Origin: Bacteroidota bacterium | GTDB taxonomy: Bacteria > Bacteroidota > Bacteroidia > Chitinophagales > Saprospiraceae | Reading direction: 5' to 3' | Length of the DNA stretch: 64,000 bases | Assembly: GCA_029781865.1 (NCBI GenBank) | Contig: JAKOVW010000079.1 | Location: 310,001-374,000 of the forward strand | Shown: positions 16,099 to 37,128 of the stretch, piece after piece | Layout of the letters: each line of letters opens with the position of its first letter | How positions within the stretch are numbered: position 1 is the stretch's first letter | Made by a program: the position numbers and the translations under genes | Notes under the pieces: generated by a model | What the model saw: the letters and a program-made list of their open reading frames with translations, nothing else | Told to the model about the DNA's origin: nothing | Database searches by the model: none

Positions 16099-16569
16099 AT
16101 GAATAAAACTCCAGAATCCAGGCACCGGATCCGCTTTAAAGATTGTGATCCCATGGGACATCTCTACAACACAAGATTCATAGAATATATGTTGGAAGCC
16201 CGTGAAGATCAGCTCATTGAGCATTATGGCTTAAGCTTGATGGATTATGCCGACCAGCGCAAAATGGCCTGGGTTTTAATAAGGCATGAAATCAATTATC
16301 TCAAGGAGGCAAAAAGGAATGAGACCGTCATCATAAAAACCCAAATTATCCATACAGATGACAAAAGTCTAATTATGGAATACCAGATGTGGAATGAAGA
16401 CCGAAGCCATCTTAAAACCATTTTATGGTCGCGGTTTTTGCATATTGATTTAATGACAAAAAGAACGGCACCTCATCCGAAGGATGTGCAGGAGATGTTG
16501 GAATCATTGGTTATTCCGATTACTGAAGTTTCAATAGATGAAAGGGTGAAGAGTTTGTTGAGGAAGTGA
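16099..16569 (+). CDS. Hotdog-fold acyl-CoA thioesterase (YbgC/4HBT type)
   Basis: A 156-residue cytoplasmic thioesterase. The active-site region RFKDCDPMGHLYNTRFIEYMLEAR fits the 4HBT pattern, with Asp in DCDPMGHLYN as the likely nucleophile or base. The middle strand AKRNETVIIKTQI and the C-terminal MEYQMW and WSRFLHIDLMTKRTAPHP complete the fold. The ATG was chosen because the longer frame begins at TTG. Downstream lie a toxin-antitoxin pair and a truncated near-copy of this gene's 3' half, about 86% identical in DNA, which suggests a local duplication that was later disrupted. Confidence 0.88.
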   Translation: MNKTPESRHRIRFKDCDPMGHLYNTRFIEYMLEAREDQLIEHYGLSLMDYADQRKMAWVLIRHEINYLKEAKRNETVIIKTQIIHTDDKSLIMEYQMWNEDRSHLKTILWSRFLHIDLMTKRTAPHPKDVQEMLESLVIPITEVSIDERVKSLLRK

Positions 16570-16676: not shown

Positions 16677-16976
16677 TTAATCTTTTATCCTATTTTCAAT
16701 ATCCATTCTCTTATGCAAGATCCTATCTATCAATATTTTTTTATCTTTTACTTGGTACACAATTATATGCGATTTTACTTGTAGCACTCTATGATTTTGT
16801 TTAATGCTTGAAATTGACTTCCCTGTTGCTGGATTTTTGCAGATTTCTTTAATTTTTAAAAAAATTAACTTGTAATAACTATTTGCTTGTCTAATTGACC
16901 ATTCATTTACTGTGTAAATCCAAATCTCTTCTAAATCCGTTTTAGCTAAATTACTTAACTCAAATAGTAATTTCAT
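16677..16976 (-). CDS. ParE/RelE-superfamily toxin
   Basis: A 99-residue toxin candidate. The pattern is typical of ParE: an N-terminal LSNLAKTDLEEIWIYTVNEWS helix pair, the central NPATGKSI loop, and HRVLQVKSHIIVYQVKDKKILIDRILHKRMD with the conserved strand and a late Arg/His segment. ParE members act on gyrase, others of the superfamily on ribosome-bound mRNA; ParE is the better fit because of the partner. The gene overlaps the upstream antitoxin by four bases (ATGA), so the two are translationally coupled. Confidence 0.85.
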   Translation of the reverse strand: MKLLFELSNLAKTDLEEIWIYTVNEWSIRQANSYYKLIFLKIKEICKNPATGKSISSIKQNHRVLQVKSHIIVYQVKDKKILIDRILHKRMDIENRIKD

Positions 16977-17218
16977 TTAGCGTGTTTCTTATTCAAACTA
17001 GCCAAGTGTTTTATTGGATCAAATTTTTTTACATATCCGCTTTCTTCACCTTTTTCAATGGCTTCTTTTAAAAGTTGAACTTTAGATTCTTCTTCTTCAA
17101 TAAGCCTTAATCCTGCCCGTATTACTTCGCTAGCTGAAGCAAATCTTCCAGATTTAATACCATTTTCGATTATCCCCTCAAAATGGTCACCAAGAGAGAT
17201 GGATGTATTTTTTGACAT
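16973..17218 (-). CDS. ParD-family antitoxin
   Basis: An 81-residue antitoxin. The N terminus (SISLGDHFEGIIENGIKSGRFASASEVIRAGLRLIEEEE) is the ribbon-helix-helix DNA-binding domain of ParD. The Lys/Glu-rich C terminus (KKFDPIKHLASLNKKHAK) would wrap the toxin. It is first in the operon. The upstream palindrome overlapping the promoter fits autoregulation by the antitoxin or the complex. Confidence 0.87.
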   Translation of the reverse strand: MSKNTSISLGDHFEGIIENGIKSGRFASASEVIRAGLRLIEEEESKVQLLKEAIEKGEESGYVKKFDPIKHLASLNKKHAK

Positions 17219-17259: not shown

Positions 17260-17727
17260 TCAATAAATAATTATATCTTTCTTGCCTTTTAAAATAGAAA
17301 AGGCTTCAGTGACGTAAGCTTGAATTTTTTCTTTTATCTGGCTTGCTGGCCTCCTCTTTCCCAACTCAATATTTATAAACTTCGAAGCCCCTATCCCAAT
17401 TATTTTCGCCGCCTCTCTTTGCGTCTCCCCCCGAATAAGCCTTGTAAAATATAGCTGTTTCCTTAGGGAAAACCGATTGGTGGTAATCGGTGGGAAGTAT
17501 CCCAAAAAGTCAATAATTCTATGGCTAGCTCTCAGACGAGGACTTTTCCGGTTCTCTTCCCAAGATCTAACAGTATCCGGACAAATTTTTAGCAACCTGG
17601 AAACACTAATAAGCGACATATCACGGTTAAGTCGCTCTTTTCGAAGATAATCTCCTAAAGTGTTTAAAATGAGAGGATAACAAGGCTTTTTAGCAGTAAA
17701 ACTGCAATTGACAAATATGACACACAA
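17260..17727 (-). CDS. Double helix-turn-helix protein, copy A
   Basis: About 155 residues with two XRE-like HTH units. The first is TLGDYLRKERLNRDMSLISVSRLLKICPDTVRSWEENRKSPRL, followed by the linker RIIDFLGYFPP. The second is LYFTRLIRGETQREAAKIIGIGASKFINIELGKRRP. This is a recurrent Bacteroidota orphan family; its role is unknown. There is no in-frame ATG upstream; the TTG of Ile-Arg-Leu-Cys was chosen as the last possible conserved start, and comparison with copy B shows mostly third-base changes from there on, so the frame is coding. The gene's 5' end abuts a truncated thioesterase fragment on the other strand. It is about 83% identical to copy B near 55.5 kb. Confidence 0.75.
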   Translation of the reverse strand: MCVIFVNCSFTAKKPCYPLILNTLGDYLRKERLNRDMSLISVSRLLKICPDTVRSWEENRKSPRLRASHRIIDFLGYFPPITTNRFSLRKQLYFTRLIRGETQREAAKIIGIGASKFINIELGKRRPASQIKEKIQAYVTEAFSILKGKKDIIIY

Positions 17728-17735
17728 CCTAATGA
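17711..17735 (+). repeat. 25-bp identical junction repeat, copy A
   Basis: A 25-base stretch identical to the one at 55745-55769. It begins ACAAATATGACACACAAC and ends CCTAATGA. It covers the HTH gene's 5' end and the first codons (AAT GA) of the thioesterase fragment, and divergence starts on both sides. It is the most conserved stretch of the two loci. Confidence 0.8.
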
Positions 17736-17982
17736 GAGGGTCATCATCAAAACCCAAATTATCCAAACCGATGAAAAAAGTTTAATTATGGAATACCAAA
17801 TGTGGAATGAAGATCGAAGTCATCTTAAAACCATTTTATGGTCCAGGTTTTTGCATATTGATTTATTGACAAAGAGAACAACTCCGCATCCGAATGATGT
17901 GCAGGAGATGTTGGAATCATTGGTGGTTCCGGTGGCAGAGGTATCAATAGATGAAAGGGTGAAAAACTTGTTAGGCAATTAA
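17731..17982 (+). pseudogene. 5'-truncated thioesterase copy next to HTH copy A
   Basis: Encodes 83 residues in frame (NERVIIKTQII to NLLGN), matching the second half of the intact thioesterase at 16099 with about 86% identity and starting exactly at the Asn-Glu codons. The catalytic Asp-Gly-His region is missing, so no activity is expected. An internal ATG (MEYQMW) could start a 64-residue product. The missing 5' half is not seen anywhere between 16.6 and 17.7 kb. Confidence 0.8.
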
Positions 17983-18053: not shown

Positions 18054-18581
18054 CTATTTGTAATTAAAACTAAATATTCCATTTGTAATCTCCTTTTTTA
18101 AAGTTTTTAGCGGTTTATCATAGATACCTGTGAAATTAAAAATACCAGTCACGTATTTGTTTTCATAATCAATTGTTTTGATTTCAATAATCCCATTAGA
18201 TTGCGCATCAAATTCCTTATCGTTATTGGCCGTCAAATTATCATCTAAAAGATAAAATCCCCAAAAATCCTCGCCGTTAAACATAGTATCCACTCCTATT
18301 TCGCATGGAAATACAAAGTCGAGATTAATAATATGGAATATTGTATCCTTTATTCCTTTTCGAATGTATTGATTGCCTTGTATTGAATAGCCACCAGAGT
18401 CAATTGTGATGGTATAATCAGTTGGAGTCCAATTTAGAGAGTCGATTTTTGCACTCATTTTTAGATTGAAAATTTCATTGAAATTCAATTCGAAATTATC
18501 ATCTGGCACAACTGTTGTTTCTGTTAAGGTGCAAGTTATAAGGCAGCAACTAAAAAAGATTAAAATAGAAAACTTCTTCAT
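18054..18581 (-). CDS. Lipoprotein of the polysaccharide operon
   Basis: A 175-residue predicted lipoprotein with signal peptide MKKFSILIFFSCCLITC and the lipobox Cys near residue 17. The mature part has the pattern of the DUF6252-type domain: an N-terminal FNLKMSAKIDSLNWTP, a mid GYSIQGNQYI strand, and a C-terminal KYVTGIFNFTGIYDKPLKTLKKEITNGIFSFNYK. The function is unknown. It overlaps the stop of the GT2 fusion gene by four bases, so it is translationally coupled to it and probably belongs to the same export or synthesis process. Confidence 0.75.
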   Translation of the reverse strand: MKKFSILIFFSCCLITCTLTETTVVPDDNFELNFNEIFNLKMSAKIDSLNWTPTDYTITIDSGGYSIQGNQYIRKGIKDTIFHIINLDFVFPCEIGVDTMFNGEDFWGFYLLDDNLTANNDKEFDAQSNGIIEIKTIDYENKYVTGIFNFTGIYDKPLKTLKKEITNGIFSFNYK

Positions 18582-21500
18582 ATTATATTTTTACTAACAA
18601 TTTCGTCATTTACATTGCCGGTTCGCTTTAATACAACCCAATGAACAAATTCACCTTTAATTGCACGAAGAATAGATTTGATTAAAACAATAAATAGTAA
18701 CTGTCTGTATACGATACGCTGTGGAATTATAAGTAGAAGCGTCTTTACTGAAATGCGTTCTCCGTCATAAGAATAGGCTATAATTGCAATAAGCATTTCA
18801 ATAGCCATATAAACCAAATACAATACAAATGTTATCAGTGTTTTTCCGAATACTAATGAAAAGATTAACATCAAGTCGACAAATGGATTAAAGAGTGGTA
18901 ATAGAAACTGAAAAACCAACATATTCGGCAATAATATCCACGCCAAATTAATATTTTTAAACCTGAATAATAAACGTTTGTGTTTCCAAAAACTTTGCAT
19001 GATCCCGAAACACCATCTCAAGCGTTGTTTCATAAAAGCCCTGACAGTTTCGGGAGCTTCCGTAAAAGCTAGCGCTTCATTACAAGTTTTAACCTTAAAT
19101 CCAGCCTGCAATAATCGCATCGTCAAATCACAATCTTCTGCGAGGGTATCAACTGAAAATTTACCCACCTGATTCACCGCTGTTTTTCGAAACATTCCGA
19201 TGGCACCAGGTATCACCATTATTGCATTCAATTGATCGAAAGCCAGTCTCTCAAAATTTTGACTAATAATATATTCAATGCTTTGCCATTTGGTTAATAA
19301 ATTGATTTTGTTTCCCACTTTGACATTTCCGGATAAACCTGCAACCAAAGCATCATCAAAATAAGGGACCATTTTTTCAATGGCATCTGCGGCAATTAAT
19401 GTATCTGCATCGATACAAAACAACAAATCACCCTTAGAATGTTGGATTCCAAGATTTAAGGCAGAAGCCTTTCCTGCATTTTTTTTTGTATAAATTGTTA
19501 CTCTTGAATGATTAGAATATACTTCTTGCAAAAGAAGAAGTGTTCGGTCTTTCGATCCGTCATCAACAACTATAATTTCAAGGTTAAGATAATTGCTTTG
19601 TAGAAGTTGCTGAATGGTTTTCACAACATTCAATTCTTCATTATATGCAGGAACGATAATACTTACCAATGGACCATTTTTCGTTGTAGGTACAATTTGT
19701 TTGTTTTGATTTGCTTTTTTCTTTGTAGCCAACACAGCTATCACTATAGCTCTGAAAGCAGTAAGAACCAAGGCTAACAAAAATACATAAAATAAAAAAT
19801 GTTGACCATAGTATAAAATATTAAGCAATATCACATTTAAAATTGCCAAATACCTATCCTTATTACTGGTAATTTCTGGCATTAATTCGGCTTCAGATTT
19901 ATCAAGCAAATGCGCCAATGTGGTAAACGTATACCCATTATCTTGATAGTACTGAATGATAGCAGGCAATGCTTTAATAGTTTCATCGCGATTTCCTCCA
20001 GCATCGTGAAGTAAAATGATATTGCCTAAATGTTGTTGCGCAATGGTCCTTGCTATAATGGTATCAGCCGTGATTCCTTTCTCCCAATCACGCGGGTCGA
20101 TGGATGAACCAATGCTAATGTAATTATCTGTTCTACCTATGGCAATGGGAAGCAATTCTGAAAACGTAGTAGGTTCCGCATCAGTATTGTAAGGCGCTCT
20201 GAATAGAATGGTAGAGTGTCCCGTAATCGCTTCAATCATCCTTCGTGTTGTTCTCAATTCAAATAATATGCGCTCTTTGCTGGCAGTTTCCAGGTTTACA
20301 TGTGTATAGGTGTGGTTGCCAATTTCGTATCCTTCTTTAATAAGACTTTTCAATCCGGGAATATCATTTTGAATATTAATACCTGTTACAAAAAACGAAG
20401 CAGGGATGTTGAATTGTTTTAAGATATTAATTATTCGCGGAGTATAATCAGGATCCGGACCATCATCAAAAGACAATACAATCGTTTTTGCTTTTTCCCC
20501 GCTTTTGCGAATCACATAACCGGATGGCAAAACCAAATATCGTTCTTCCGAAATGAGTTGATCAGTAGTGTCATACTCAAATTCAATTACACCTTTTGAT
20601 GGAGCAGTAACAATATTCAAAATTTCACCTGCTCCAATATAATCTACATTGGTAGAGGGTGCAATTTCTTTTAATTTTTCTGTAATGACAATTTGCGATG
20701 CGATAGAATCGAATGCTAGTCTTTTATTATAAAAAGTCCAAATTCGATCATCTTCTGATCCTAAACGCCATAATGCAAATCCCGCAGTTCCAAAATCTTC
20801 TCCAGCCCGCATTGCATTGTATGCCGAAGCTGCATCCGTAAAATAAACTTCATGTTCTTTATCGAATTCATCCCAATAGGTATAGTTAAGGTTGTAGGTA
20901 TGGTTGTTAAAATATGGAATGGTATCGCTCTCCGACGCAATGGCAACAGCTTCCTGATAGGTGATATTGACTCCTTCAAACCCTTTTATCCAATCATATC
21001 CGTATGCTGAAATACACAATACTACTTTATCAGAAGGAATATTTTCCAAAGCCTGATCCAAGGCATTTTCAATCCAGGATTGTCCGGCAATAGGTCCGGG
21101 ATAACTTCCCTGGTTATGTTGGTCATAAGCCATTAAAAATAATAAATCATTATATTTTATTAATTCCTTGTAGTTGTAATCCTCGTTGAACGGAGATACA
21201 TCCTGGGTAACTATAAATCCATTTTGATGTAAAGCAGAATAAAGGTCTCTTTGAAACGCAATAATATATTTATCAGTAGATTCATTTAACTCTTCAAAAT
21301 CAATATTAACACCATTGAAATTATATTTATTCAAATTATCAATGATACTGTTTATAAATATTTGCTTTCGTTTTGGATCATGAATGATCCGCTTTACATT
21401 GTTTCCATTCCAATTTTTATTGAAGTAATTAGAAACCATTGGAATAATACGTATTTTTGAAGCACGCATCACATCTAATGCCTTTAGCGCGGCATCACTT

Positions 21501-21970
21501 AAATCAACACTTATTTCATCGCTGCTATCTGATACAAAAAACCATTCAGGAAGCACCATGTTTATTTCATTGATATGTTCTTTTAGTGATAAAAAAGATT
21601 GAATATCCCAATTAACAAAAAAAGCGGCTCGAATTGGAATCAACGAGTTAACTTGTTTATTGTGATTGCTTGAAGGAATGGAGCTTGAATGGGTATAAAA
21701 ATCAAGATGGTTTTTATCTCTGATTTTTCGAATATCTTTATCAAATTCATCATGAATAACATCACCAAGGGTATCGCTTTCGATAATTTTCTTTAACGTG
21801 CGCATTCCAAATTGTTTTGGAATATTCAGTTTCTCTGATTTATTTACTGAATACAAGCCAATAGTTATTAATAACAGCAATAAGCCAAATACGGCAACTA
21901 ATATTAACCGAAATCTTTTCCAACGCATTGAAGAAGAAGAATTAAATACTTGCTTATTTTCTTCGGCCAT
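18578..21970 (-). CDS. Trifunctional GH18 / polysaccharide deacetylase / GT2 membrane protein
   Basis: 1130 residues. TM1 is at about 20-42. A GH18-like domain at about 108-420 carries GVNIDFEEL at 220-228 (the acid Glu of the DxxDxDxE-type motif). A CE4 deacetylase at about 495-690 has FDDGPD (501-506), HTYTH (553-557) and LFRAPYN. One or two TM segments at 705-748 follow. A processive GT2 at about 765-1000 shows VDDGSKD, DAD (854-856), AEDCD and QRLRW (982-986), and C-terminal TM helices end the protein. Together these parts would polymerise, deacetylate and cut an amino-sugar polymer such as poly-N-acetylglucosamine or chitin. This parallels PgaB plus PgaC in one chain. It sits between an outer-membrane protein gene (17-base overlap) and a lipoprotein gene. 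Confidence 0.9.
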   Translation of the reverse strand: MAEENKQVFNSSSSMRWKRFRLILVAVFGLLLLLITIGLYSVNKSEKLNIPKQFGMRTLKKIIESDTLGDVIHDEFDKDIRKIRDKNHLDFYTHSSSIPSSNHNKQVNSLIPIRAAFFVNWDIQSFLSLKEHINEINMVLPEWFFVSDSSDEISVDLSDAALKALDVMRASKIRIIPMVSNYFNKNWNGNNVKRIIHDPKRKQIFINSIIDNLNKYNFNGVNIDFEELNESTDKYIIAFQRDLYSALHQNGFIVTQDVSPFNEDYNYKELIKYNDLLFLMAYDQHNQGSYPGPIAGQSWIENALDQALENIPSDKVVLCISAYGYDWIKGFEGVNITYQEAVAIASESDTIPYFNNHTYNLNYTYWDEFDKEHEVYFTDAASAYNAMRAGEDFGTAGFALWRLGSEDDRIWTFYNKRLAFDSIASQIVITEKLKEIAPSTNVDYIGAGEILNIVTAPSKGVIEFEYDTTDQLISEERYLVLPSGYVIRKSGEKAKTIVLSFDDGPDPDYTPRIINILKQFNIPASFFVTGINIQNDIPGLKSLIKEGYEIGNHTYTHVNLETASKERILFELRTTRRMIEAITGHSTILFRAPYNTDAEPTTFSELLPIAIGRTDNYISIGSSIDPRDWEKGITADTIIARTIAQQHLGNIILLHDAGGNRDETIKALPAIIQYYQDNGYTFTTLAHLLDKSEAELMPEITSNKDRYLAILNVILLNILYYGQHFLFYVFLLALVLTAFRAIVIAVLATKKKANQNKQIVPTTKNGPLVSIIVPAYNEELNVVKTIQQLLQSNYLNLEIIVVDDGSKDRTLLLLQEVYSNHSRVTIYTKKNAGKASALNLGIQHSKGDLLFCIDADTLIAADAIEKMVPYFDDALVAGLSGNVKVGNKINLLTKWQSIEYIISQNFERLAFDQLNAIMVIPGAIGMFRKTAVNQVGKFSVDTLAEDCDLTMRLLQAGFKVKTCNEALAFTEAPETVRAFMKQRLRWCFGIMQSFWKHKRLLFRFKNINLAWILLPNMLVFQFLLPLFNPFVDLMLIFSLVFGKTLITFVLYLVYMAIEMLIAIIAYSYDGERISVKTLLLIIPQRIVYRQLLFIVLIKSILRAIKGEFVHWVVLKRTGNVNDEIVSKNII

Positions 21971-22883
21971 TTTGGTTTAAAAAGTATAAATTATACAAAA
22001 CATTTAATGAAAAATATCCAAATCCACTTTTTAAATATTGGCTTAAAGGAGGATCTTCATAACTTACTGAAATTGGGTAATTGTAATGATAAGCGGGAGT
22101 AATGACAAGGTTTCTATATTCAATATTCAATTTTAAGAGGGCTTCATAGTTTACTAAGCTGGGACTCTGCAAAGTATATTTTGATTTGATTGAAAGGAAT
22201 GGAGCATTGTTTGAGAAAAACCGAGTTGTATCATTTTTTACTTTGTCACTGGCATAAAATGATAGATTAAATGTAAGATTTAAATTCCAATGAAAATCCC
22301 TGGTAGTAGAAGGTAATTCCACTTTATATTCAGTGGTTCCTTCAATTAAATATGCATTTTCTTTACCCCATAAATAATAAATACCCAATTCGCCATTTAG
22401 TCTTTCAAAATTGGTGCTTAAAGCGGATAGAATCATATTATTGTAATTCATTCCCAGAAAGAATGTATCATTAGCCAAAAACCATCTTTCATAGGAACAA
22501 TTAATATTGAAGTATTCAGATATATCTTTATCAAGTCCAATACCCAGATCAGTTTTTGCAATTGGAGAATGGATACCACTCCAATTATAATTATTCAAAT
22601 TAAAATAAAGTCCACTTGGAATCTTATAGGTTAAGACAGAATTAAATCCATGCTGGATTAAACCAAAATCGCGTCCCCTGTAAATTACCTTACTAGAATA
22701 GCCAGCTTCCATCGAAAGGAGGCCGCTATTTTCGCGTACCAGATCTATACTGTCTTCTTTGAACTGGGCAAGGCTGTCCTGAATCACTTGGACTTGCCCG
22801 TCTATCTTAATAGACTTTTCAATTTGAGCGAAAAGAGAAATAGATAAAAGTACAAAAAAAATCAATTGACAAAGCAACCTCAT
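21954..22883 (-). CDS. Predicted outer-membrane beta-barrel protein
   Basis: 309 residues with a signal peptide ending in SLFAQ. The rest alternates hydrophobic and polar residues with many Tyr, Asn and aromatic strand ends (GLYFNLNNYNWSGI, YFSLNVLYNLYFLN), the pattern of a Bacteroidota outer-membrane barrel. It overlaps the start of the GH18/CE4/GT2 gene by 17 bases and so opens this operon. By position it could be the outer-membrane part of polymer export, as PgaA is elsewhere, but there are no TPR repeats and no sequence evidence for that role. Confidence 0.65.
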   Translation of the reverse strand: MRLLCQLIFFVLLSISLFAQIEKSIKIDGQVQVIQDSLAQFKEDSIDLVRENSGLLSMEAGYSSKVIYRGRDFGLIQHGFNSVLTYKIPSGLYFNLNNYNWSGIHSPIAKTDLGIGLDKDISEYFNINCSYERWFLANDTFFLGMNYNNMILSALSTNFERLNGELGIYYLWGKENAYLIEGTTEYKVELPSTTRDFHWNLNLTFNLSFYASDKVKNDTTRFFSNNAPFLSIKSKYTLQSPSLVNYEALLKLNIEYRNLVITPAYHYNYPISVSYEDPPLSQYLKSGFGYFSLNVLYNLYFLNQNGRRK

Positions 22884-23116
22884 TAAGACTAGATTGAAAT
22901 TAATGAACTTAGTTTAAAATGATAAGTAAAAAAATACAAATCGAGATCAAGTTGATAAAACCTATTCACTAGTTTAGATGGCTATAGTCTTGCGATAATT
23001 TTCCATCCCACAAAGTGATTCAACTTAAGTCTTCGTCTAAAAGGAGAGTGATTTTCCTCCAGATGGAGACCTCAATCATACAATTCTCCTAACGGTTATA
23101 AGCTATTGCTAAATCC

Positions 23117-23548
23117 CTATCCGATGAGATAAGCAACTCCTTGATTAAACGGTTTACATAAATCAATGATCAGGTTCTCTCTGCAAAGCGTTTCAAATGA
23201 ATCTCTGATCACTTTATAATTATTATGAATTGGACATGGATGCGCAGTCGAACACTTACTCAACCCCAAACCACATTCCTTAAATACGCCTTTACCATCA
23301 ATCGCTTCAATTATTTTTATTATAGGTTGACGTTTTTGTTTGGCCGTCATGTAGAATCCACCGTTAGGCCCTTTTGCGCTATATATTAATTCCTTTTTTA
23401 CCAATGATTGCAGTATTTTACCTACCGTATGCTCACTGGCATCAATATACTCAGCTACTTTTTTGATTCCCGTTTTTTCTTCAGTATCATTTTTAGAAGC
23501 CAGAAAGACTATTGCTTTGATAGCTGTTTTGCTGGTAAGACTCAACAT
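23117..23548 (-). CDS. Rrf2-family transcriptional regulator with three cysteines
   Basis: 143 residues. The winged HTH is TKAIKAIVFLASKN to KGPNGGFYMTAKQ (LYSAKGPNGGF is the wing). The Cys residues at 92, 99 and 105 in ECGLGLSKCSTAHPCP match the Fe-S ligand set of the Rrf2 group (IscR, NsrR, RsrR). It is the last gene of the operon of NO-related proteins, two bases after the MIP18 gene. This suggests a repressor or activator that senses NO or Fe-S status and controls the operon. Target sites are unproven, but a palindrome precedes ric. Confidence 0.9.
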   Translation of the reverse strand: MLSLTSKTAIKAIVFLASKNDTEEKTGIKKVAEYIDASEHTVGKILQSLVKKELIYSAKGPNGGFYMTAKQKRQPIIKIIEAIDGKGVFKECGLGLSKCSTAHPCPIHNNYKVIRDSFETLCRENLIIDLCKPFNQGVAYLIG

Positions 23549-23550
23549 GA

Positions 23551-23877
23551 CTATTGATTTAAAAAATAATTTCCCTCTTTTGAAATGAATTCAGAGCTCC
23601 ATGGAGGATCGAACGTAAGTTCAACAATGACAGTACTGTTTGTAAATGTATTTTCCAAAACGCTTTTAATGTCACTTGTTATGGATTCGCTCATTGGACA
23701 ATATGGTACGGTTAGCGTCATAAGGATATAGATTTTATTACCATTAGTTTCATCAAAATTAATATGATAGATCAAACCCAGATCTATAACATTCAAACCG
23801 ATTTCCGGATCCAGCACATATTTTAATACTGATATGGCCTTGTCGCATTTAATCCGGTCATTGGTAATTATACTCAT
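23551..23877 (-). CDS. MIP18/DUF59-family Fe-S assembly factor
   Basis: 108 residues. The family signature DPEIGLNVIDLGLIYHI and LTLTVPYCPMSESITSDIKSVLENTF (with the conserved Cys-Pro) are present, as is VELTFDPPWSSEFI near the end. Such SufT/PaaD-like proteins help place or repair Fe-S clusters. It overlaps the preceding membrane gene by four bases and is two bases from the Rrf2 gene. That fits repair of clusters damaged by NO. Confidence 0.88.
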   Translation of the reverse strand: MSIITNDRIKCDKAISVLKYVLDPEIGLNVIDLGLIYHINFDETNGNKIYILMTLTVPYCPMSESITSDIKSVLENTFTNSTVIVELTFDPPWSSEFISKEGNYFLNQ

Positions 23878-25163
23878 GAGAGGACGGGTTTATGCAACAA
23901 AACCTTAATTACATTCCAATTATACAATAAAGCCGCAACTATTAAAAAAAGAGAACCCGGCTTTAAAAAATAAATACTCTTCATAAATAAACCTATGATA
24001 AATAAAGCAAAACCTGTCAGATAAAATATGCCCATTACATTATAAACGTTACCGTTAAATAATACTCTTGGGCTAGGTGGCCTGACCCTGCCAACCAACA
24101 TATGATATACTTTAAGCCAAACAATAAACGGAAGTGTTTTAAAAGTCATCCCAAATATGATTGCAGTTATCCATCCAAAAAAAATAATAAAGCCATACGC
24201 TAAAAATAATTGCGAATCAAAGGTATCCAATATCATCATCCATATCAATGCAAGGAGCAGAATAAGTGGCAACAGCATCATGATTACAGATAATAAAGAA
24301 ACTTTCATTTGTTCATCCAACTGTTTGCGCACGCGCTGCTTAAAGCTGCAGTAACAATAATAAGCAAATAGAATCAAAGAACTCAATATGGACAAAACAG
24401 GTATGATATAGAATACAATTTCAATAGAATACCAAAAAAAAATGATAAATGTCAAAAGGCTACCATTTATCATGGCATAAATAATCCATAATAACGTCGT
24501 ATTTGTATATTTTGAAATAAGAAACATAGGTATTAACCGGGATCCTACTCCAATTATTAATAATAAAAACCAACCAATAATGCCTGTATGGGCATGGAGG
24601 GGTATATATTCCAATGATTTTAATGATAAAATCGAAATCGAATGATTATACACCAAAACCAATCCGAATGTTATGGTAATAAATAACCAACATGCAGCTG
24701 TAAGAATAAAACAAGCATGTACATTCACCTTCCTGCTTTTGATAAAACTCACGCTGAGATTTACTAAATAAGAAAAAATGGCTAAAAAGATAATACGCCC
24801 TCCCCATTTCGCCGGCCATCCCATATTATAAGAATAGAATCCATACACGAGCAAAGGGATACCAACAGCTGCTAATACAAATGAGAAATACGCTAATTTG
24901 ATACTATACAACTTTCCTTCAATGAAGACAGGCACCAACTGGTGACTGGCACCTAAAATAATCATGGTGCCCCAACCCAAAGCCATGATGTGTGTAATGG
25001 CCAAAATATGCGGATGAAAATAATGTTGGACAAATGAGGAAGAAAAAAAAAATAAAAATATTGTGGCAGTCAGGAAAGATAATGCCGCATACATATAAAA
25101 GGGAAGGACTACTTTGTAAGTCGTCTTCTTAACCAGAAAATTTGTATTCCCTTCAATCAACAT
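23874..25163 (-). CDS. Twelve-helix heme-copper-oxidase-like or NnrS-like membrane protein
   Basis: 429 residues with twelve hydrophobic helices. Conserved His clusters stand in helix 2 (HPHILAITHIMALGW and SHQLVPV) and helix 6 (LHAHTGIIGWF), as in subunit I of heme-copper oxidases or the heme-copper protein NnrS. It is too short for a full oxidase, and the Tyr-His crosslink motif is not evident. The position, between a DUF2249 gene and a MIP18 gene in an NO-response operon, suggests binding or handling of NO with heme. An ATG at 25163 was chosen over the GTG one codon upstream. The exact family needs a profile search. Confidence 0.65.
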   Translation of the reverse strand: MLIEGNTNFLVKKTTYKVVLPFYMYAALSFLTATIFLFFFSSSFVQHYFHPHILAITHIMALGWGTMIILGASHQLVPVFIEGKLYSIKLAYFSFVLAAVGIPLLVYGFYSYNMGWPAKWGGRIIFLAIFSYLVNLSVSFIKSRKVNVHACFILTAACWLFITITFGLVLVYNHSISILSLKSLEYIPLHAHTGIIGWFLLLIIGVGSRLIPMFLISKYTNTTLLWIIYAMINGSLLTFIIFFWYSIEIVFYIIPVLSILSSLILFAYYCYCSFKQRVRKQLDEQMKVSLLSVIMMLLPLILLLALIWMMILDTFDSQLFLAYGFIIFFGWITAIIFGMTFKTLPFIVWLKVYHMLVGRVRPPSPRVLFNGNVYNVMGIFYLTGFALFIIGLFMKSIYFLKPGSLFLIVAALLYNWNVIKVLLHKPVLS

Positions 25164-25971
25164 CACGTGATTTAAAAATTAAGAGTTGTACATCCCCATC
25201 ACTGATTTCGTTGATGCGGTAGTCAAATTTCCGTTCGGTTAATTCAGGCAGTAAAAACACAGGGATCCGCTTATGGTAAACAAATAAAGCTTGATCCTCA
25301 GGTAGATTTTCTAATGCCTCGAGGATTGTAAGCATTGGCAAAGGCATTTCAAGATTTTTCACGTCAATGACTTGCAGCTTGTTTTGAAATTTATTTAAAG
25401 CTCCACCCCATTCAGAAGCAGTATGTTTTTCCTCCGTTGATTGATAGGATTCCACTTTACTTTGTTTACAAAAATACGTTTCTACCAGATTATCATCAAT
25501 AAGATCAGCGTAAACCGCGAAGCCTTGTTTTTCTAAAAGCAACATCAAAGGAACAGGCTCAAAACTATTGATGATTTTTAAAACCTGACCTATCTGAATC
25601 CCTTTTACTTTTTCAGTAATGATATTCAAAGGATCTTTTCCCGAACCAATGATCGGCCTGACATCTAATACAACCAGCTGTTCTTTTTGGAGATCCCTCA
25701 TAAAATCTGGAATTTTCTTTTTTTCTTCGGTCGCAATCATTGTGGATTCATCAATGTCAAATCCCAGAGGTTTTAATTTTTCAAAAAATGCACTCACGTT
25801 ACATCCAGCAATTTTTGAGGCCATTGCAATACTGGCCCGTCCTGCCATTAACTTACGCAACATCGGGTTCCTGAGTTTTTCAAATTTAGGACTAATTGCG
25901 ACAATTGCTTCCAAAGCATCCGGGTGTCCTTTCAGGATTGCTGCAATTTTGGTGTTGGCATTAATGGTCAT
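25153..25971 (-). CDS. DUF1858 plus DUF2249 tandem protein
   Basis: 272 residues. Residues 1-70 match DUF1858 (ISPKFEKLRNPMLRKLMAGRASIAMASKIAGC, a ScdA_N-like helical unit with a Cys). Then come two DUF2249-type alpha/beta units, LVVLDVRPI and LQVIDVKNLEMPLPMLTILEALENLPEDQALFVYHKRIPVFLLPEL, which resemble TusA-like sulfur-carrier folds without the catalytic Cys. DUF2249 and ScdA_N also occur in the neighbouring Ric protein. It is the second gene of the operon, two bases after the lipoprotein gene. The biochemical role is unknown. Confidence 0.8.
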   Translation of the reverse strand: MTINANTKIAAILKGHPDALEAIVAISPKFEKLRNPMLRKLMAGRASIAMASKIAGCNVSAFFEKLKPLGFDIDESTMIATEEKKKIPDFMRDLQKEQLVVLDVRPIIGSGKDPLNIITEKVKGIQIGQVLKIINSFEPVPLMLLLEKQGFAVYADLIDDNLVETYFCKQSKVESYQSTEEKHTASEWGGALNKFQNKLQVIDVKNLEMPLPMLTILEALENLPEDQALFVYHKRIPVFLLPELTERKFDYRINEISDGDVQLLIFKSRDVD

Positions 25972-25973
25972 TA

Positions 25974-26441
25974 TTACTTAAAATATTGATTATAGAGATT
26001 TGCTTGATTTTGAATAGCTGCATACAATTGAGCTGCATCCGCAACTGTGGCTGCATTTTTTAGTTTTGACACCTGCTCTATTAATGGTTCCAGCCATCTG
26101 TGCAATGCTTCATGGTCTGCTCCCTGCATTTTACATTCGCTTATCATTTTATTCAATCCTCCCTGCAATCCCATTGCTATATTTTTATAAGCCAACAATG
26201 ATTTGTCCGCGCCATCATTGAAGCTCTGAATACTAATCAGTAAACTCTTTACATTTTTATTTGTAGTACTGTCAGCTTTCCACTTGGCTCCGTTGTTTAA
26301 TGTCAGGTCGATAGATTTAGATTCATGTTGATCAGAATCTTTTTCTGAAGTATTCAAGTTTGCATTGTGATCAGAATGCTTCTCATGGTTACAAGCCCAA
26401 AGAATACTAGAAAACAATATAATAATAACTATCTTTTTCAT
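25974..26441 (-). CDS. His-rich small lipoprotein opening the NO operon
   Basis: 155 residues with signal MKKIVIIILFSSILWAC and a lipobox Cys at residue 17. A short His-rich stretch (NHEKHSDHNANLN) follows, which could bind metal. The C-terminal part is helical with LHRWLEPLIEQVSKLK. Such a domain is seen in Bacteroidota next to NO-response genes. It is the first gene of the operon, and a repeat-bearing spacer separates it from ric. Confidence 0.65.
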   Translation of the reverse strand: MKKIVIIILFSSILWACNHEKHSDHNANLNTSEKDSDQHESKSIDLTLNNGAKWKADSTTNKNVKSLLISIQSFNDGADKSLLAYKNIAMGLQGGLNKMISECKMQGADHEALHRWLEPLIEQVSKLKNAATVADAAQLYAAIQNQANLYNQYFK

Positions 26442-26490
26442 CTTAGATTTTATTAAGTTTGATTCTATTCCATTTTAAAAAACTGTAGAA

Positions 26491-26523
26491 TACAGGCTAT
26501 AGGTTGTAAGCTGTAGGTTGTAG
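26491..26523. repeat. GTAGGTTGTA-type short repeat in the ric spacer
   Basis: A run of related heptamer-like units (TACAGGCTATAGGTTGTAAGC followed by TGTAGGTTGTAG). It is similar in style to the array at 62804-62873, but with a different unit. It lies in the spacer before the His-rich lipoprotein gene. Confidence 0.5.
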
Positions 26524-26597
26524 AAATTTAAATATATTAATCCTTACATACCTTTTTCTTATAACCCTTGCCTCTTGCCCTTAGCCTTTTGCCATTT

Positions 26598-26618
26598 GCT
26601 TATTGCTTATTGCTTATT
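26598..26618. repeat. GCTTATT heptamer repeated three times
   Basis: Three exact copies of GCTTATT. The ric stop codon (TAA on the minus strand) lies inside the array, and further degenerate units (TTGCCATTT, TTGCCCTTAGCC) extend away from the gene end. It forms the last codons of ric (SNKQ), so an expansion changed the protein's tail. Confidence 0.6.
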
Positions 26619-27568
26619 GTCACTTTCTCCAATTCCAATACTTTCGGGAAAAGGATATTATTTTCAAGATGAATATGCAAATGTAAATCCTCCTCAAATT
26701 CATCCAGCATTCTATATAGCAAACTGTAACTTGCACACGCATCGTCCGGCAATGTATAGTTATTGGAAAGCTCTCTGATTTCGGCAAGATTTTTCCCAAC
26801 AATTTCATGTTCCACTTCCATCATGTTGATCGGATTTTGAACCGTTCCGAAAGGAGAATTATGCATTGCCAATGAATTATTTTTTATTCCAGCCAGTTCT
26901 TTAATATATGGGAACAGCACTCTTTCCTCTTTTGCCAAATGTGCTGTTAGCTCATTACTCAATTCTTCCACCAATTGCCAGATTTGCAATAATTCAGGAT
27001 GACGACTACCATGTACTTTCATGACTTTTGATGCATAGGATCTGATATCGGGTAGATTTTTTCTGATATAACTATGATGTGTATTTACAATATAATCTGC
27101 TAGAAAATCCAAACTCCAATCACCATATGGAAGTGGGCGGGATGATGGCACTTTATCAGCCTGCTGAAGTTCTTGCTCAATTCTGGTTACGTCCAATCCC
27201 TTTTCCGAACAGGCTTCTTTTACCGTTTTTTTTCCACCGCAACAAAAGTCCAATCCATATTTCTTAAATATTTTAGCTTTACGTAAATCTTTGGCTGCTA
27301 TTTGCCCTAAGGTTTCTTCCTTCTCACCAGTAATGCGTTTAGTGATCCTGACTTTCCACCATTCCGGACCTTGTTCCAGGTATTCCCAGTTAAATACATT
27401 TCCTCTTTCTCCAAGTAGTTGATAATATAATGGCTTCGGATCATGATCATTATGAATGGTTACACTCTCCCCTTCCATCAAGGCATCAAAACGTTTAAAG
27501 ATGGTCGGATGCTTTTCCTTGGGTTCAAGAATAGTTACATCTAGGAAATTTTCTGTTTCTGCTTGCAT
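26600..27568 (-). CDS. Iron-sulfur cluster repair di-iron protein (Ric/ScdA type)
   Basis: 322 residues. An N-terminal DUF2249 unit (LDVTILEPKEKHPTIFKRFDAL) is followed by ScdA_N (LRKAKIFKKYGLDFCCGGKKTVKEAC). The C-terminal hemerythrin-like bundle has HHSYIRKN, HLAKEERVLFPYI, EVEHEIVGKNL and HIHLENNILFPKVLEL, giving the di-iron ligands. Ric proteins repair clusters damaged by NO or peroxide. It stands as its own transcription unit just upstream of the NO operon, and has a promoter with a palindrome near -40. The DUF2249 fusion at the N terminus is typical for Bacteroidota. Confidence 0.93.
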   Translation of the reverse strand: MQAETENFLDVTILEPKEKHPTIFKRFDALMEGESVTIHNDHDPKPLYYQLLGERGNVFNWEYLEQGPEWWKVRITKRITGEKEETLGQIAAKDLRKAKIFKKYGLDFCCGGKKTVKEACSEKGLDVTRIEQELQQADKVPSSRPLPYGDWSLDFLADYIVNTHHSYIRKNLPDIRSYASKVMKVHGSRHPELLQIWQLVEELSNELTAHLAKEERVLFPYIKELAGIKNNSLAMHNSPFGTVQNPINMMEVEHEIVGKNLAEIRELSNNYTLPDDACASYSLLYRMLDEFEEDLHLHIHLENNILFPKVLELEKVTISNKQ

Positions 27569-27599
27569 GGTAATAAATTTAAATTTTAAACAGCTTTAG

Positions 27600-27644
27600 C
27601 AAAGATACTACAAACCAGTTATATAAAAGTATTTATTTACTTTT
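27600..27644 (-). promoter_or_regulatory. ric promoter with a 20-bp palindrome near -40
   Basis: On the minus strand a TATCTTTG -7 box lies at 27600-27607. Upstream lies a perfect palindrome, AAAAGTA-N6-TACTTTT, at 27625-27644. The palindrome centre is about 40 bases before the predicted start site, the class II position used by CRP/FNR-type activators. An Rrf2 repressor would also be possible, because the site covers the -33 region. Confidence 0.6.
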
Positions 27645-27838
27645 ATTATTAAAATAATTTTTGTTCTGCAACAAAAAAGCACTGATTTTGAAACAAGAGC
27701 CCCTACTATTGAATATAGAAAGTAAGAAAGAAGCAATTTTTAAGCATAGTCAAATAATGTTATCCAAATTATTGTTTTTCAATACTTTACAATACATAAA
27801 CTCAAAATAAAAACATCATTACGCTATAACAAAACGAG

Positions 27839-28261
27839 TCATTTTCTGACCCAGATCATTTTTTTACCGAACAACATACTACTATCCGTCATTTTAATAC
27901 TATGTAACTGAACGGTATATATGCTCCCTTGCCTGACCAGTGCCATTGGAAATTTATCATGATATTTTTTAAATGCACCATTTTTCCATTGATCTGTTTT
28001 GTCTATCACCATTCCGGTAAATTGGACTCCTTTTACCTTGATTTTATTTAATTTATCCGGCAGAATAGTACCTGCCACATTAGGATTCTTCTCTATTAAT
28101 AAAGAATGGTATGATTCCAATGAAGACTTGTAATACAATAAGGCCGTCTCCATATCAAATATATAATAACAGCTAAAACAATATGGCAATCTTAAATCAT
28201 CAATAACGCAAATAGTGGCACAGGTTTGAGTTTTCAAAAATGCAATAAGCAATTCGTTCAT
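27839..28261 (-). CDS. Pyridoxamine-phosphate-oxidase-like flavin barrel protein (YhbP type)
   Basis: 140 residues. The split-barrel opening TCATICVIDDLRLPYCFSCYYIFD, then ALLYYKSSLESYHSLLIEKNPNVAGTI, is typical of the UPF0306/YhbP group of FMN-binding split barrels. The C-terminal SIYTVQLHSIKMTDSSMLFGKKMIW closes the barrel. The start overlaps the stop of the ferredoxin gene by four bases, so the two are coupled. Its redox substrate is unknown; the partners are a ferredoxin and a U32 protein. Confidence 0.8.
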   Translation of the reverse strand: MNELLIAFLKTQTCATICVIDDLRLPYCFSCYYIFDMETALLYYKSSLESYHSLLIEKNPNVAGTILPDKLNKIKVKGVQFTGMVIDKTDQWKNGAFKKYHDKFPMALVRQGSIYTVQLHSIKMTDSSMLFGKKMIWVRK

Positions 28262-28479
28262 TGGATTTTAATTATATTAACCGGACATGAATGGACAACG
28301 TCTTTCATTTGAGGCAAAACTGATATACCAACAGAACGAATAAATACACACCGCTTTTTACAAGCGTTTACTAAGGAAGCCTTTCCGTCTCTATTGGACA
28401 TCCTCCAAAATTCAGGCTGCAACTCATAACAAGTACCACAACCTATACAATTATTTCTATGAAAGATAATTTTAAACAT
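28258..28479 (-). CDS. Small ferredoxin
   Basis: 73 residues, starting MFKIIFHRNNCIGCGTC. The Cys motif C-I-G-C-G-T-C at 11-17 and a late CPVN (Cys-Pro) give the four ligands of one [4Fe-4S] or [3Fe-4S] cluster. Two further Cys residues (NACKKRC) lie in between. The start at 28479 was chosen over a longer frame, because residues before MFKII are encoded inside the U32 gene and do not fit. It overlaps the U32 gene by 8 bases and the YhbP-like gene by 4, so the three are probably translated together. Confidence 0.88.
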   Translation of the reverse strand: MFKIIFHRNNCIGCGTCYELQPEFWRMSNRDGKASLVNACKKRCVFIRSVGISVLPQMKDVVHSCPVNIIKIQ

Positions 28480-29719
28480 CCCTATTTTTAAAGATCTTAT
28501 AAAGTTTATCGTTGGCTGAAATTTTAGTAGCAAAAGGAAATGTAACCTTGTCTCCTTTAGTTGCTTCACTTGCTTCAACTCCATTCACAACCAATTTCAA
28601 CATCTGCAGTCTTTGCACACCGCATATCGGTCCAATTACCATTATTGTATCAAACACATTAATCTTACCTGCCTCCACTATAAATTCACCTACCTTCATT
28701 TTAGAAAAATAATTACTCCCTTTTCCAATATAAATCTTCTTCTCAGTTGCAATTGAGCCATAATGGCTAGTCCATTGTCCCGTCATTTGCCCTAAATAAT
28801 GACCCTCCCAGAAGCCTCTGTTATAAACTTTAGCTAATTCTGTTTTCCAATTCTCTATTTTATCATAGGAAAAAGTCCCTTCATCAATTGATTGCAGTGC
28901 TTCCTTGTAGCACTTGGTAACGGAATAAATATAATCCGCTCCTTTGGTTCGTCCTTCAATTTTAAGAATATCCACACCACTGTGTGCAATCTGATCCAAT
29001 ATATCTATTGTACACAAATCTTTTGATGACATGATGTATTTATTATCGATCGAAAGCTCCTCATTGGTTTCACAATTGATGACTTTATAAAGATGCCTGC
29101 AATTTTGAAAGCATGCTCCCCGATTTGCTGAGGCGTTATGTGTGTGCAGGCTCAAATAACATTTCCCTGAAATAGCCATACATAATGAACCATGAACAAA
29201 AACTTCAACTTTCATTAATTCACCTGAGACTCCCAAAATACTTTGCCTTTTAATTTCTGATGTTATCTGTTTAATTTGCGACAAGGTTAATTCTCTGGCC
29301 AAAACTACCACATCTGCATATTTAGAGTATAAACGGACAGATTCCAAATTACAGACATTGGCTTGTGTAGAGATATGAAGAGGTATGTTCAAATCTGAGC
29401 AATATGAAATCACAGCGAAGTCCGATGCTATTACTGCATCTATATTATTTTTTAATACTTCTTTTAAAATGCCACGCATTAACTGCATATCATGATCGTA
29501 TATCTCAGTATTTAAAGTTAAGTATGTTTTGATTCCATTGGCTTTGCAAAGAGTGCTCACCTCTTTCATATCGTTGATCTTAAATGAATGCGTTGAGCGT
29601 GCACGCATATTCAATTGTTCTACCCCAAAATAAACAGCATCGGCACCTGCCTGGACGGCAGCCTGGATACAATCTAAAGAGCCAGCTGGCGACAAAATCT
29701 CAATTTTCTTTTTAATCAT
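28472..29719 (-). CDS. U32-family protein (collagenase-like, RlhA/TrhP type)
   Basis: 415 residues. The TIM-barrel start KKIEILSPAGSLDCIQAAVQAGADAVYFGVEQLNMRARS is the U32 signature. The conserved Cys-containing core is at CYLSLHTHNASANRGACFQNCRHLYKV, with four Cys that may bind an Fe-S cluster. The U32 family hydroxylates rRNA or tRNA (RlhA, TrhP) or helps O2-independent ubiquinone synthesis (UbiU/UbiV). A ferredoxin and a flavin protein follow and overlap, which fits an electron-fed hydroxylase. The specific substrate is unknown. The ATG was chosen at the start of the conserved barrel. Confidence 0.87.
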   Translation of the reverse strand: MIKKKIEILSPAGSLDCIQAAVQAGADAVYFGVEQLNMRARSTHSFKINDMKEVSTLCKANGIKTYLTLNTEIYDHDMQLMRGILKEVLKNNIDAVIASDFAVISYCSDLNIPLHISTQANVCNLESVRLYSKYADVVVLARELTLSQIKQITSEIKRQSILGVSGELMKVEVFVHGSLCMAISGKCYLSLHTHNASANRGACFQNCRHLYKVINCETNEELSIDNKYIMSSKDLCTIDILDQIAHSGVDILKIEGRTKGADYIYSVTKCYKEALQSIDEGTFSYDKIENWKTELAKVYNRGFWEGHYLGQMTGQWTSHYGSIATEKKIYIGKGSNYFSKMKVGEFIVEAGKINVFDTIMVIGPICGVQRLQMLKLVVNGVEASEATKGDKVTFPFATKISANDKLYKIFKNRDV

Positions 29720-29798
29720 GTTACTTGCGATTGATTTTAGTTTTACAATAAATGCAACAAACTCCAAATTGGTATTCTATAGAAAACCAAATTTCATT

Positions 29799-30710
29799 TC
29801 AATCATGTCTCTTCCCATTTGTTGTTTTAAATACGTGAAGGATATAAGGAAACAATGCATCCATACTTTCACTGGCCCCTCTTGTCGAACCAGGTAATGC
29901 AAGAATAAGCATCTCCCCTTTTAATCCAGCAATACTCCTGGAGAGCATTGAGTATGGCATTTGTTCCTGACCATAATTCCTGACAGTCTCTCCGATACCA
30001 GGAATTTCACGATCCAGCATAGGCCTTACAGCTTCAGGTGTAACATCACGGGGAGACAAACCTGTACCACCAGTAAGGACTACTAAATCCATTTTATTCT
30101 CATAAAAAAATTGGATTTTATCCTGTATCACCTCAAATTCATCAGGAATAATGCAATAATGTTCAATAACAACTCCCATACTTTCAAGTTTGCTTACAAT
30201 TGCTTTACCAGATAAATCGGGTTTAGTTCCAGCTGATATACTATCTGAGCACACAATCACAGCTGCTTTAATGGGATAAATAAACAAATCTATATATTGA
30301 GATTTCCCTCCCTTTTTACTCAATAATTTTATACTTGTTATTTCAATACTTTTATCAATTGGCTTGAGCATATCATAAATCGTTAAAGCCACTATAGATG
30401 CTCCGTGCATTGCTTCTACTTCCACCCCTGTTCTGTAGATTGTATGAACTTCAGTTTCAATAATTATTTCCAATCCCTTTAACTTGTGGGTTACAGAGGC
30501 AAATTCAACCGGAAGGGGATGGCAATCGGGGATTACATCGCTTGTTTTTTTAATTCCAAATAATCCAGCTATTCTGCTCGCCTCAATGACATCACCTTTT
30601 GGAACCGTTTTGTTAATAATTGCTTCCATTGTTTCAGGCATACTGACCCTTACTATAGCCTGGGCAATTGCCGAACGATGTGTTTTAATTTTATTAGTTA
30701 TATTTATCAT
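29799..30710 (-). CDS. moaCB: Fused MoaC-MoaB molybdenum cofactor protein
   Basis: 303 residues. The N-terminal half is MoaC (cyclic pyranopterin monophosphate synthase): KGDVIEASRIAGLFGIKKTSDVIPDCHPLP and RTGVEVEAMHGASIVALTIYDM. The C-terminal half is MoaB/MogA: VIVCSDSISAGTKPDLSGKAIVSKL, VVLTGGTGLSPRDVTPEAVRPML and PGIGETVRNYGQEQ. It joins the second step of the pathway and the adenylyl transfer step in one chain, a known fusion in Bacteroidota. It lies after moaE and ends the Moco cluster. Confidence 0.93.
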   Translation of the reverse strand: MINITNKIKTHRSAIAQAIVRVSMPETMEAIINKTVPKGDVIEASRIAGLFGIKKTSDVIPDCHPLPVEFASVTHKLKGLEIIIETEVHTIYRTGVEVEAMHGASIVALTIYDMLKPIDKSIEITSIKLLSKKGGKSQYIDLFIYPIKAAVIVCSDSISAGTKPDLSGKAIVSKLESMGVVIEHYCIIPDEFEVIQDKIQFFYENKMDLVVLTGGTGLSPRDVTPEAVRPMLDREIPGIGETVRNYGQEQMPYSMLSRSIAGLKGEMLILALPGSTRGASESMDALFPYILHVFKTTNGKRHD

Positions 30711-30760
30711 ATCAATTGCTTTAAATAATTATTACGTGTTAAGATGCTTAAGTGGCCAGA

Positions 30761-31204
30761 TCAGGCTGGGTTTTTCCACACAAAACTTTCATCTTCAAAT
30801 AATTCCTTTCCCCAAATAGCAACTTCATTTTTAATTCTTTCAACAATTTCAGTACATGCATCTATGGAATCTTTACGATGGATAGAAGAAGTAAAAACGA
30901 ATAAGCAAATCCCCCCCGCTTCTACTCTTCCGAGACTATGATAAATATGCATGCATATCAAATTATATTTTTTGAAAATACTTTCCCGAATTTCATGCAA
31001 CCTTTCTTCGGCCATTTCCATATATGCACTATAATGAATTGCAACTACCGAATTGTTTTCAATTAAATCGCAACGAACCTGACCAAGAAAAATACTATGG
31101 GCGCCAATATTTTTCTTGTTTGTATGTTTTGCAATAGCTTCACCTACGAATATTGGCGAAATAGCTCCATTAACAAATACGTTTTTAATCTTATTTTGCT
31201 CCAT
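30761..31204 (-). CDS. moaE: Molybdopterin synthase catalytic subunit
   Basis: 147 residues. It moves sulfur from MoaD to precursor Z to make molybdopterin. The motifs GAHSIFLGQVR, HYSAYMEMAEERLHEI, HSLGRVEAGGICLFVFTSS and RKDSIDACTEIVERIKNEVAIWGKELFEDESFVWKN are the family core. The residue at the E. coli Lys119 position (in FWKRE) aligns by eye to Gly in IWGKE, with Lys next to it; I believe this also occurs in other Bacteroidota MoaE, so activity is probably retained. It lies between the moeB remnant and moaCB. Confidence 0.9.
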   Translation of the reverse strand: MEQNKIKNVFVNGAISPIFVGEAIAKHTNKKNIGAHSIFLGQVRCDLIENNSVVAIHYSAYMEMAEERLHEIRESIFKKYNLICMHIYHSLGRVEAGGICLFVFTSSIHRKDSIDACTEIVERIKNEVAIWGKELFEDESFVWKNPA

Positions 31205-31231
31205 GCAATAATTATTTTTTTAATTTACATT

Positions 31232-31588: not shown

Positions 31589-31599
31589 TGATCTAAATA

Positions 31600-31833: not shown

Positions 31834-32053
31834 TTTATAACTTCATCAAGTTGTTTAAATATCCATTTAATAGAAATCATCTTTAAATAGATGATCTATT
31901 TTTTTACTAATTCACACTAGCTAACCAAATCTTTTCGTATCCAAAATTATTTGATTAAAACTCAATTCATTAATGCCTTTATATAGTTTTAATGATCCTA
32001 AATTAATGGCATTATTTAATTTTATTAATTTGAGGATTTGCTTCCAGCTAATG

Positions 32054-33247: not shown

Positions 33248-33262
33248 AATTTTATTAAAACT

Positions 33263-34711: not shown

Positions 34712-34779
34712 AAACTAATCGCCGGTTTAAAATTTTCAATATTGTTATTTTATTATAATCCTTTGTTTATGTACTTAAT

Positions 34780-37103: not shown

Positions 37104-37128
37104 ATGAACCATCCTTAAATGATAATTA

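Follow-up and report, generated by a model that had tools for sequence, protein, structure and literature searches.

Among the closest described parallels to the locus reported here are systems from archaea and from a mycobacteriophage. According to the accessible text of a 2021 review (PMC8371274), the suicidal integrases of SSV1, pTN3 and pT26-2 have attP inside the integrase gene, such that integration leaves two parts, int(N) and int(C); these are tyrosine recombinases in which int(C) carries the catalytic domain, and they are said there to be exclusive to archaea. In the integration-dependent immunity of mycobacteriophage BPs, attP likewise lies within an ORF, and integration truncates the product and alters its activity; however, the gene that is split is the repressor and not the integrase (PMC4557955). 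Serine recombinases, for their part, have been linked to a magnesium chelatase gene. According to Durrant et al. 2022 (PMC10083194), 12.4% of the site-specific integrases predicted there target homologues of this gene, which on our own reading is comM/YifB, and the large serine integrases of that study resemble those described below in being PF07508 recombinases that insert in this gene; unlike the present case, its accessible text describes neither an attP inside the integrase gene nor a severed HTH nor a thioesterase target, and its workflow filters on the distance between recombinase and site. The phage WO variant sr1WO is another serine-recombinase element that splits a magnesium chelatase gene, that of Wolbachia, with an empty site in a relative, but it is a prophage, and the accessible text does not describe a split integrase (PMC9203015). 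The targeting of this gene by serine recombinases is thus already in print (PMC10083194, PMC9203015), while the open-access literature, so far as its text is available, yielded no description of an attP inside a serine integrase gene. What we describe here looks like a serine counterpart of the self-splitting archaeal tyrosine integrases, and differs from them in that the recombinase would keep its catalytic part and lose a double HTH, and in that the loci are mostly labelled bacterial.

The window, by which we mean the whole stretch of 64,000 nucleotides analysed, is part of contig C79 of a 4.5 Mb genome (G000). Its genes run in the order metallophosphoesterase-like gene, thioesterase (TE), 39.4 kb of other sequence, thioesterase 3' half and leuS (Table 1); the phosphoesterase and leuS were identified by eye, and the TE by the Pfam domain 4HBT_2. 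Two minus-strand ORFs with a double HTH, in full 17260-17766 and 55303-55890, each abut, at their 5' side, a thioesterase 3' half on the plus strand beginning AATGA. An earlier note on this DNA had placed both junctions at these Asn-Glu codons, and this is precisely where they fall, with tail A beginning at 17731 and tail B at 55765. Its description of an HTH gene joined to a thioesterase needs correcting, since the genes are on different strands, both directed away from the junction, and are therefore not a gene fusion. Tail A and the TE at 16099-16569 are 86% identical in DNA (228 of 266 positions, in agreement with the note) and 85.5% in protein, against 71% over 211 alignable DNA positions and 63.9% in protein for tail B. 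HTH A and HTH B are 78% identical as proteins, the two loci align without a gap for 674 bp across the junction (76% DNA identity), and a genome search returned these two as the only HTH copies. Both HTH frames are stop-free up to the junction and through the proposed core, and the stretch between core and HTH contains neither ATG nor GTG, and a single TTG beside the core; the 5' end of the HTH is consequently not an obvious gene start.

Table 1. Features of the window at and around the interrupted thioesterase gene (positions are those of the window)
Feature	Position	Strand	Remarks
Native TE 5' half, left flank of island	16099..16317	+	4HBT_2; open 156-aa frame with tail B
Incoming TE 3' half completing today's TE, left part of unit A	16318..16569	+	
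Proposed core AA left of unit A	16318-16319		
ParE toxin, unit A cargo	16677..16976	-	PF05016
ParD antitoxin, unit A cargo	16973..17218	-	PF03693
Probable Int(C) A, double-HTH C-terminal serine integrase fragment	17260..17730	-	Open through core
Proposed attR A	17718..17732		Arm TGACACACA 17718-17726, N4 ACCT, core AA 17731-17732; placed by analogy with comM islands
Displaced thioesterase tail A	17731..17982	+	
Unit B cargo	18054..55161		Rrf2, MoaC, MoaE, hemerythrins, narG, narH, narI, narK-like MFS, cytochromes c, others
Probable Int(C) B, second double-HTH integrase fragment	55303..55764	-	
Proposed attR B	55752..55766		Arm TGACACACA, N4 ACCT, core AA 55765-55766; placed by analogy
Tail B, the native thioesterase 3' end, adjoins leuS	55765..56016	+	
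leuS, right flank	56261..59098	+	

Comparison with relatives indicates what is native at this locus. Neighbours within about 1.5 kb were examined in twelve relatives with better TE matches; phosphoesterase, TE and leuS are adjacent in three of them (G004, G005, G007), and the TE stands alone in the other nine. In G005 and G007 the genes have the orientation seen in the window with a TE-leuS gap of 45-48 bp, which is the empty site with an intact thioesterase that the earlier note had suggested looking for. The TE of G004 (L013) is inverted between phosphoesterase and leuS, about 700 bp from the latter. The TE 5' half (16099-16317) and tail B (55765-56016) together form an open frame of 156 amino acids. 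The empty site and this restored frame indicate that 16318-55764 was inserted in the TE at Asn-Glu, that tail B is native, and that the present TE has been completed by an incoming 3' half; tail A is incoming also. Where the note envisaged two standing paralogues struck at one codon, we see a single TE locus invaded twice, the extra 3' halves having arrived with the insertions or after them. No HTH match was found in eight congeners at E 0.001; NarG is 88-89% identical in three of the eight, where it occupies other loci and its neighbours are shuffled, and joint movement of the nar genes with the element is therefore not proven.

Pfam was run on 30 window ORFs and found no transposase among them, Tn7-like comM islands (AbaR) being marked by TnsABC-type transposase genes; narG, narH and narI were assigned in this way, and the narJ-like and narK-like genes by position and an MFS match. 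Neither a tyrosine nor a serine recombinase was found in the window island by Pfam and domain searches, and no remnant of a large serine recombinase (LSR) was found in the window at E 1e-4. Integron gene cassettes go with a tyrosine IntI and attC sites. The Phage_integrase domain occurs ten times elsewhere in the genome and not once in the island, and a tyrosine integrase was rejected as the island enzyme for this reason. A short ORF at 51946-52185 has a weak beta-eliminating lyase match below the Pfam cut-off and is possibly a remnant.

The HTH ORF recurs elsewhere, most often against a different gene. Searches with HTH A covered 60 relatives and 248 family genomes, and an HTH profile was run against 396 order genomes; matches came from 7, 7 and 23 genomes respectively, own genome included. 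The window's own loci and a pair in G030, also against comM tails, were left out when 31 HTH loci were scored for comM; it lies at the core in 20 of them, as the 3' half in 18 and as an inverted 5' half in two. The comM/YifB codons at the junction are Asn-Pro / Cys-Pro-Cys-Gly, and the island usually ends at the HTH ORF behind a conserved arm, GGCAACGCA-N4-core. The earlier note had suggested testing whether the HTH 5' ends in related genomes fall at the same thioesterase codon; the target there is mostly comM. The recurrence of this kind of junction in other genomes and at comM makes it more than chance. By tblastn the remaining 11 loci have no comM at the junction. Seven of these (L058, L062, L070, L074, L075, L076, L079) end, by eye, in a GGCAACGCAACC-like arm, behind which L070 and L075 have a short inverted comM-like piece; also by eye, L078 has a weak version of the arm and L046, L084 and L085 have none. 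HTH A gave no match in genome_contigs or viral_contigs.

Left ends of the comM islands read AACCC-[C/A]-TG-TGGTTGCGT or similar (CCC-TG-TGGTTGCGT-like), and right ends ACGCAACC or similar followed by TG-YCC, so that inverted, imperfectly mirrored arms accompany a short core, the two bases TG, on both sides. The right arms of the window, TGACACACA-ACCT-AA, match this spacing (arm-N4-core) with AA replacing TG; only right arms are present there, and the core AA is placed by geometry. Given this fit, we read the window HTH ORFs as candidate Int(C) ends at attR, belonging to two stacked islands. Site-specific insertion at an exact point, as the note proposed, is supported by the empty sites in congeners and by the recurrence of arm and 2-bp core at comM and elsewhere. 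G431, G024, G393 and G333 (inverted) have a split comM with no second full tail, as does G059, next to an older unit that is LSR-free; short extra comM-tail pieces are present in G024 and G393. The complete island of G431, the type strain Sediminibacterium ginsengisoli DSM 22335, shares a contig with L167. The idea that a tail forms part of every element was rejected on the evidence of G431, G024, G393 and G333.

Three comM loci have features of separate interest. In G390 (L093:12653-12894) a 237-bp segment of comM is inverted, with CA/TG dinucleotides at both ends when read by hand; one of these ends is the att site of comM, as would be expected had the recombinase acted on another site near His-His-Thr (residue ~296). 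The cargo of the LSR-free comM unit of G059 (L047:7083-17933) includes a multicopper oxidase/cytochrome c protein (Pfam), nitrite reductase-like in look, and genes resembling norCBQD by eye, which with the nar genes of the window makes a second denitrification-type cargo. In G024 (L049:9577-13090) an OLD-like TOPRIM ATPase and a UvrD helicase (Pfam) adjoin the presumed Int(C), a pair which we take to resemble the Gabija defence pair.

At the left end of complete islands, opposite the HTH ORF, there is a protein of about 500 amino acids; four were tested and all have Resolvase and Recombinase domains, which are found at the ends of related comM islands and are missing from the island in the window. 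The small HTH-coding element of the earlier note therefore gives way to long islands of which the HTH ORF is one end, and a small HTH transposon was rejected as a candidate on the same grounds. A profile built from five of these proteins gave 20 matches in 18 of the 396 order genomes at a cut-off of E 1e-100. Of these 20 matches, nine adjoin comM and another two form the facing ends of a pair of islands in G322; those remaining are at other places, some near tRNA genes. Thirteen of the 18 are also among the 23 HTH genomes, where about one would be expected, the HTH and LSR draws being taken as the same genomes because they share handles. LSR relatives are encoded by 226 stretches of genome_contigs, from which 80 were kept, labelled Bacteroidota, Ignavibacteria, Proteobacteria, Acidobacteria, Patescibacteria and others, and mostly bacterial. 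In 51 of these, comM lies within 400 nt of the LSR end (49 with the 5' half, two with the 3' half), and in 29 no comM was found within that distance. CA stands immediately before comM in 48 of 49 LSR rows. The LSR of G024 had no match among plasmids (E 1e-60) or phages (E 1e-40). In the window's own genome the single Resolvase-domain match (C51:102044-102481) belongs to an LSR of the same family at 101042-102499, 47-53% identical to the comM LSRs; it is on a contig other than the window's and at a site other than comM, with two tyrosine recombinases at a distance of 9-16 kb, and no HTH partner was found for it.

Two LSR loci have unusual structures. Between the halves of one comM, G322 (C11:86485-162995; L096, L117, L097) has two islands head to head with their LSR ends facing. 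L206:2412-6527, labelled Armatimonadetes, has, besides the interrupted comM, a complete copy of this gene next to the LSR, as though an element may bring a replacement target gene.

The two ends of these islands are in frame with one another in the pairs compared. All 49 LSRs with a comM 5' half at their end, a set that was not dereplicated, are stop-free through the core into comM. Of the two alternative frames, one lacks stops in 10 and the other in 5 of these 49 over the final 120 nt; over 60 nt the counts are 21 and 17. The HTH frame, too, crosses the core without a stop in all 20 comM loci, compared with 7 and 1 for the other frames in the 19 loci long enough to score. When LSR end, core CA and HTH end are joined, one frame results in 8 of 8 pairs. 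Five pairs had both ends on one contig (G024, G431, G393, G059, G330), and in three LSR and HTH were used from different contigs (G297, G433, G403), the HTH of G297 being taken from another contig although one also occurs on that of the LSR; the inverted islands of G333 and G322 were left out. Seven of the eight pairs have the same phase, which means that in-frame joining is largely shared ancestry, and swapped partners are also in frame in 42 of 56 cases; in G024 the phase differs on both sides, and the differences compensate.

Further evidence comes from genes in which the two parts are not separated. Five of the 80 kept LSR ORFs (L169, L199, L209, L228, L238) run on into an HTH domain by Pfam, and we scored the best CA-centred palindrome in each linker, out of 22, against 500 codon shuffles. 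That of L209 scores 18 with no shuffle as good, L238 16 with one, and L228 14 with two; L199 (12, with 45 as good) and L169 (11, with 173) are no better than the shuffles by this test, and by eye the L199 linker has arms GGCAACG and CGTTGCC. There is one intact copy of comM in the genomes of L199, L228 and L238 (the empty comM sites G541, G543 and G544); comM is incomplete at a contig end in the L209 genome and broken in that of L169. HTH A of the window is 32% identical to the C-terminal part of L228 over 140 residues. An AlphaFold model of L228 is poor (mean pLDDT 58.7) and serves as illustration only; the linker, approximately residues 460-529, belongs to the regions of lowest confidence, and two helical bundles come after it. 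The contigs that carry the fused genes reach 330 kb, and a free circle was not observed. In G540 (C24:37942-105997), comM is broken near residue 300 and at 370 with the fused L169 between the pieces, a possible second att site in this gene.

The in-frame joints, the open LSR frames and the natural fusions together point to an attP within the integrase gene. We consider it probable that the HTH ORFs are Int(C) fragments of a large serine integrase that has attP inside its own gene and is split on integration; relatives provide the evidence for a divided integrase ORF, and the window itself holds only the Int(C) part at attR. In the free element, a single ORF would read LSR, attP and double HTH. 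Once attP recombined with a target within a host gene (TE in the window, comM in most of the islands seen), the integrase gene would be cut, with Int(N) and all of the LSR domains left at one island end and Int(C) at the opposite end, next to the severed host gene. In the window, two right ends, A and B, would lie in tandem inside one TE gene, unit B carrying nitrate-respiration genes and unit A a ParDE module; these units would once have had an LSR half, which is now missing, the TE having presumably been rebuilt with an incoming 3' half. The HTH might instead be an independent small gene, a regulator or directionality factor, beside attP in an operon of LSR, attP and HTH, with the frames merely open. 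The XRE-type double HTH does resemble repressors, and 17 of 19 HTH ORFs elsewhere have an ATG, GTG or TTG between core and HTH, which would make separate translation possible. An independent gene does not, however, account for the constancy of the open frame in 20 of 20 loci when its alternatives are so seldom open, nor for five natural in-frame fusions, nor for window copies with neither ATG nor GTG ahead of the HTH, and we think it unlikely.

How the interrupted genes came by additional tails is a separate matter, on which the divergence of the tails is informative. Intact TE tail and tail A differ by dS 0.62 and dN 0.07 (dN/dS ~0.11), and tails A and B by a saturated dS and dN 0.30; among comM tail pairs dN/dS is ~0.02 in G038, G137 and G059, 0.05 in G390 and 0.08 in G030, and the tails of G522 are nearly identical. 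Tail A and the intact tail thus diverged as working genes and not as a converted dead fragment, and, G522 apart, the low values indicate that both tails of a locus evolved in separate lineages as working genes and came together recently. Duplication of a tail in situ followed by decay was rejected on these values (~0.02-0.11, with G522 and the saturated tail B pairs as exceptions). The earlier note's alternative, a duplicated HTH-thioesterase chimera whose tail A was gene-converted by the intact TE, draws on the chimera common to A and B and on the resemblance of tail A to the intact gene; a dS of 0.62 between those two tails speaks against conversion, B sits at the native site by leuS, and the same end occurs at comM, all of which makes it very improbable. 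Two other accounts seem to us quite plausible, each falling somewhat short of probable. Units without an LSR may be cassettes of target 3' half, cargo and HTH arm, moved in trans by an LSR elsewhere, with the newest stacked at the 5' side. Six LSR-free units are seen (two in the window and one each in G038, G137, G522 and G059), their tail pairs have diverged under purifying selection, and the distance between intact tail and tail A is close to that between HTH A and HTH B (dS 0.79, dN 0.15), tail B being saturated; this near-equal divergence favours a mobile unit, but the concordance rests on one locus, G030 and G059 being uninformative. The other account has TE and comM rebuilt by uptake of an empty-site copy, through a homologous exchange on the left and an illegitimate one on the right, which would delete the LSR half and leave cargo, Int(C) and the old tail. 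No LSR was found in the rebuilt loci examined, and behind the rebuilt tail of G522 comes a piece with 78% identity to the native gene downstream, which favours uptake and, as a mark of repair by foreign DNA, tells against cassettes; yet the window would require two such events, and no leuS fragment lies beside the intact tail or tail A. A comparison of the native tail of G038 with congeners had one partial sequence, lacking the 3' half, to draw on.

If the integrase is indeed split in this way, the catalytic half would remain whole in a serine version found in bacterial islands, and integration could determine its own direction in a simple manner, with no separate factor needed. Loss of the HTH domain may change what the enzyme does, and we suggest, tentatively, that integration switches an integrating LSR-HTH form to a different or locked form consisting of the LSR alone, and that LSR-free tail units stack as arrays in housekeeping genes and move in trans. 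LSR proteins of this family annotated from integrated islands would then lack their C-terminal domain, which matters for the mining of LSRs as integration tools. For readers of genomes, a double-HTH ORF standing alone next to a gene fragment can be taken as a candidate island end; in the window, such an ORF forms the boundary of a 38-kb region, with genes for nitrate respiration, that lies in a thioesterase gene.
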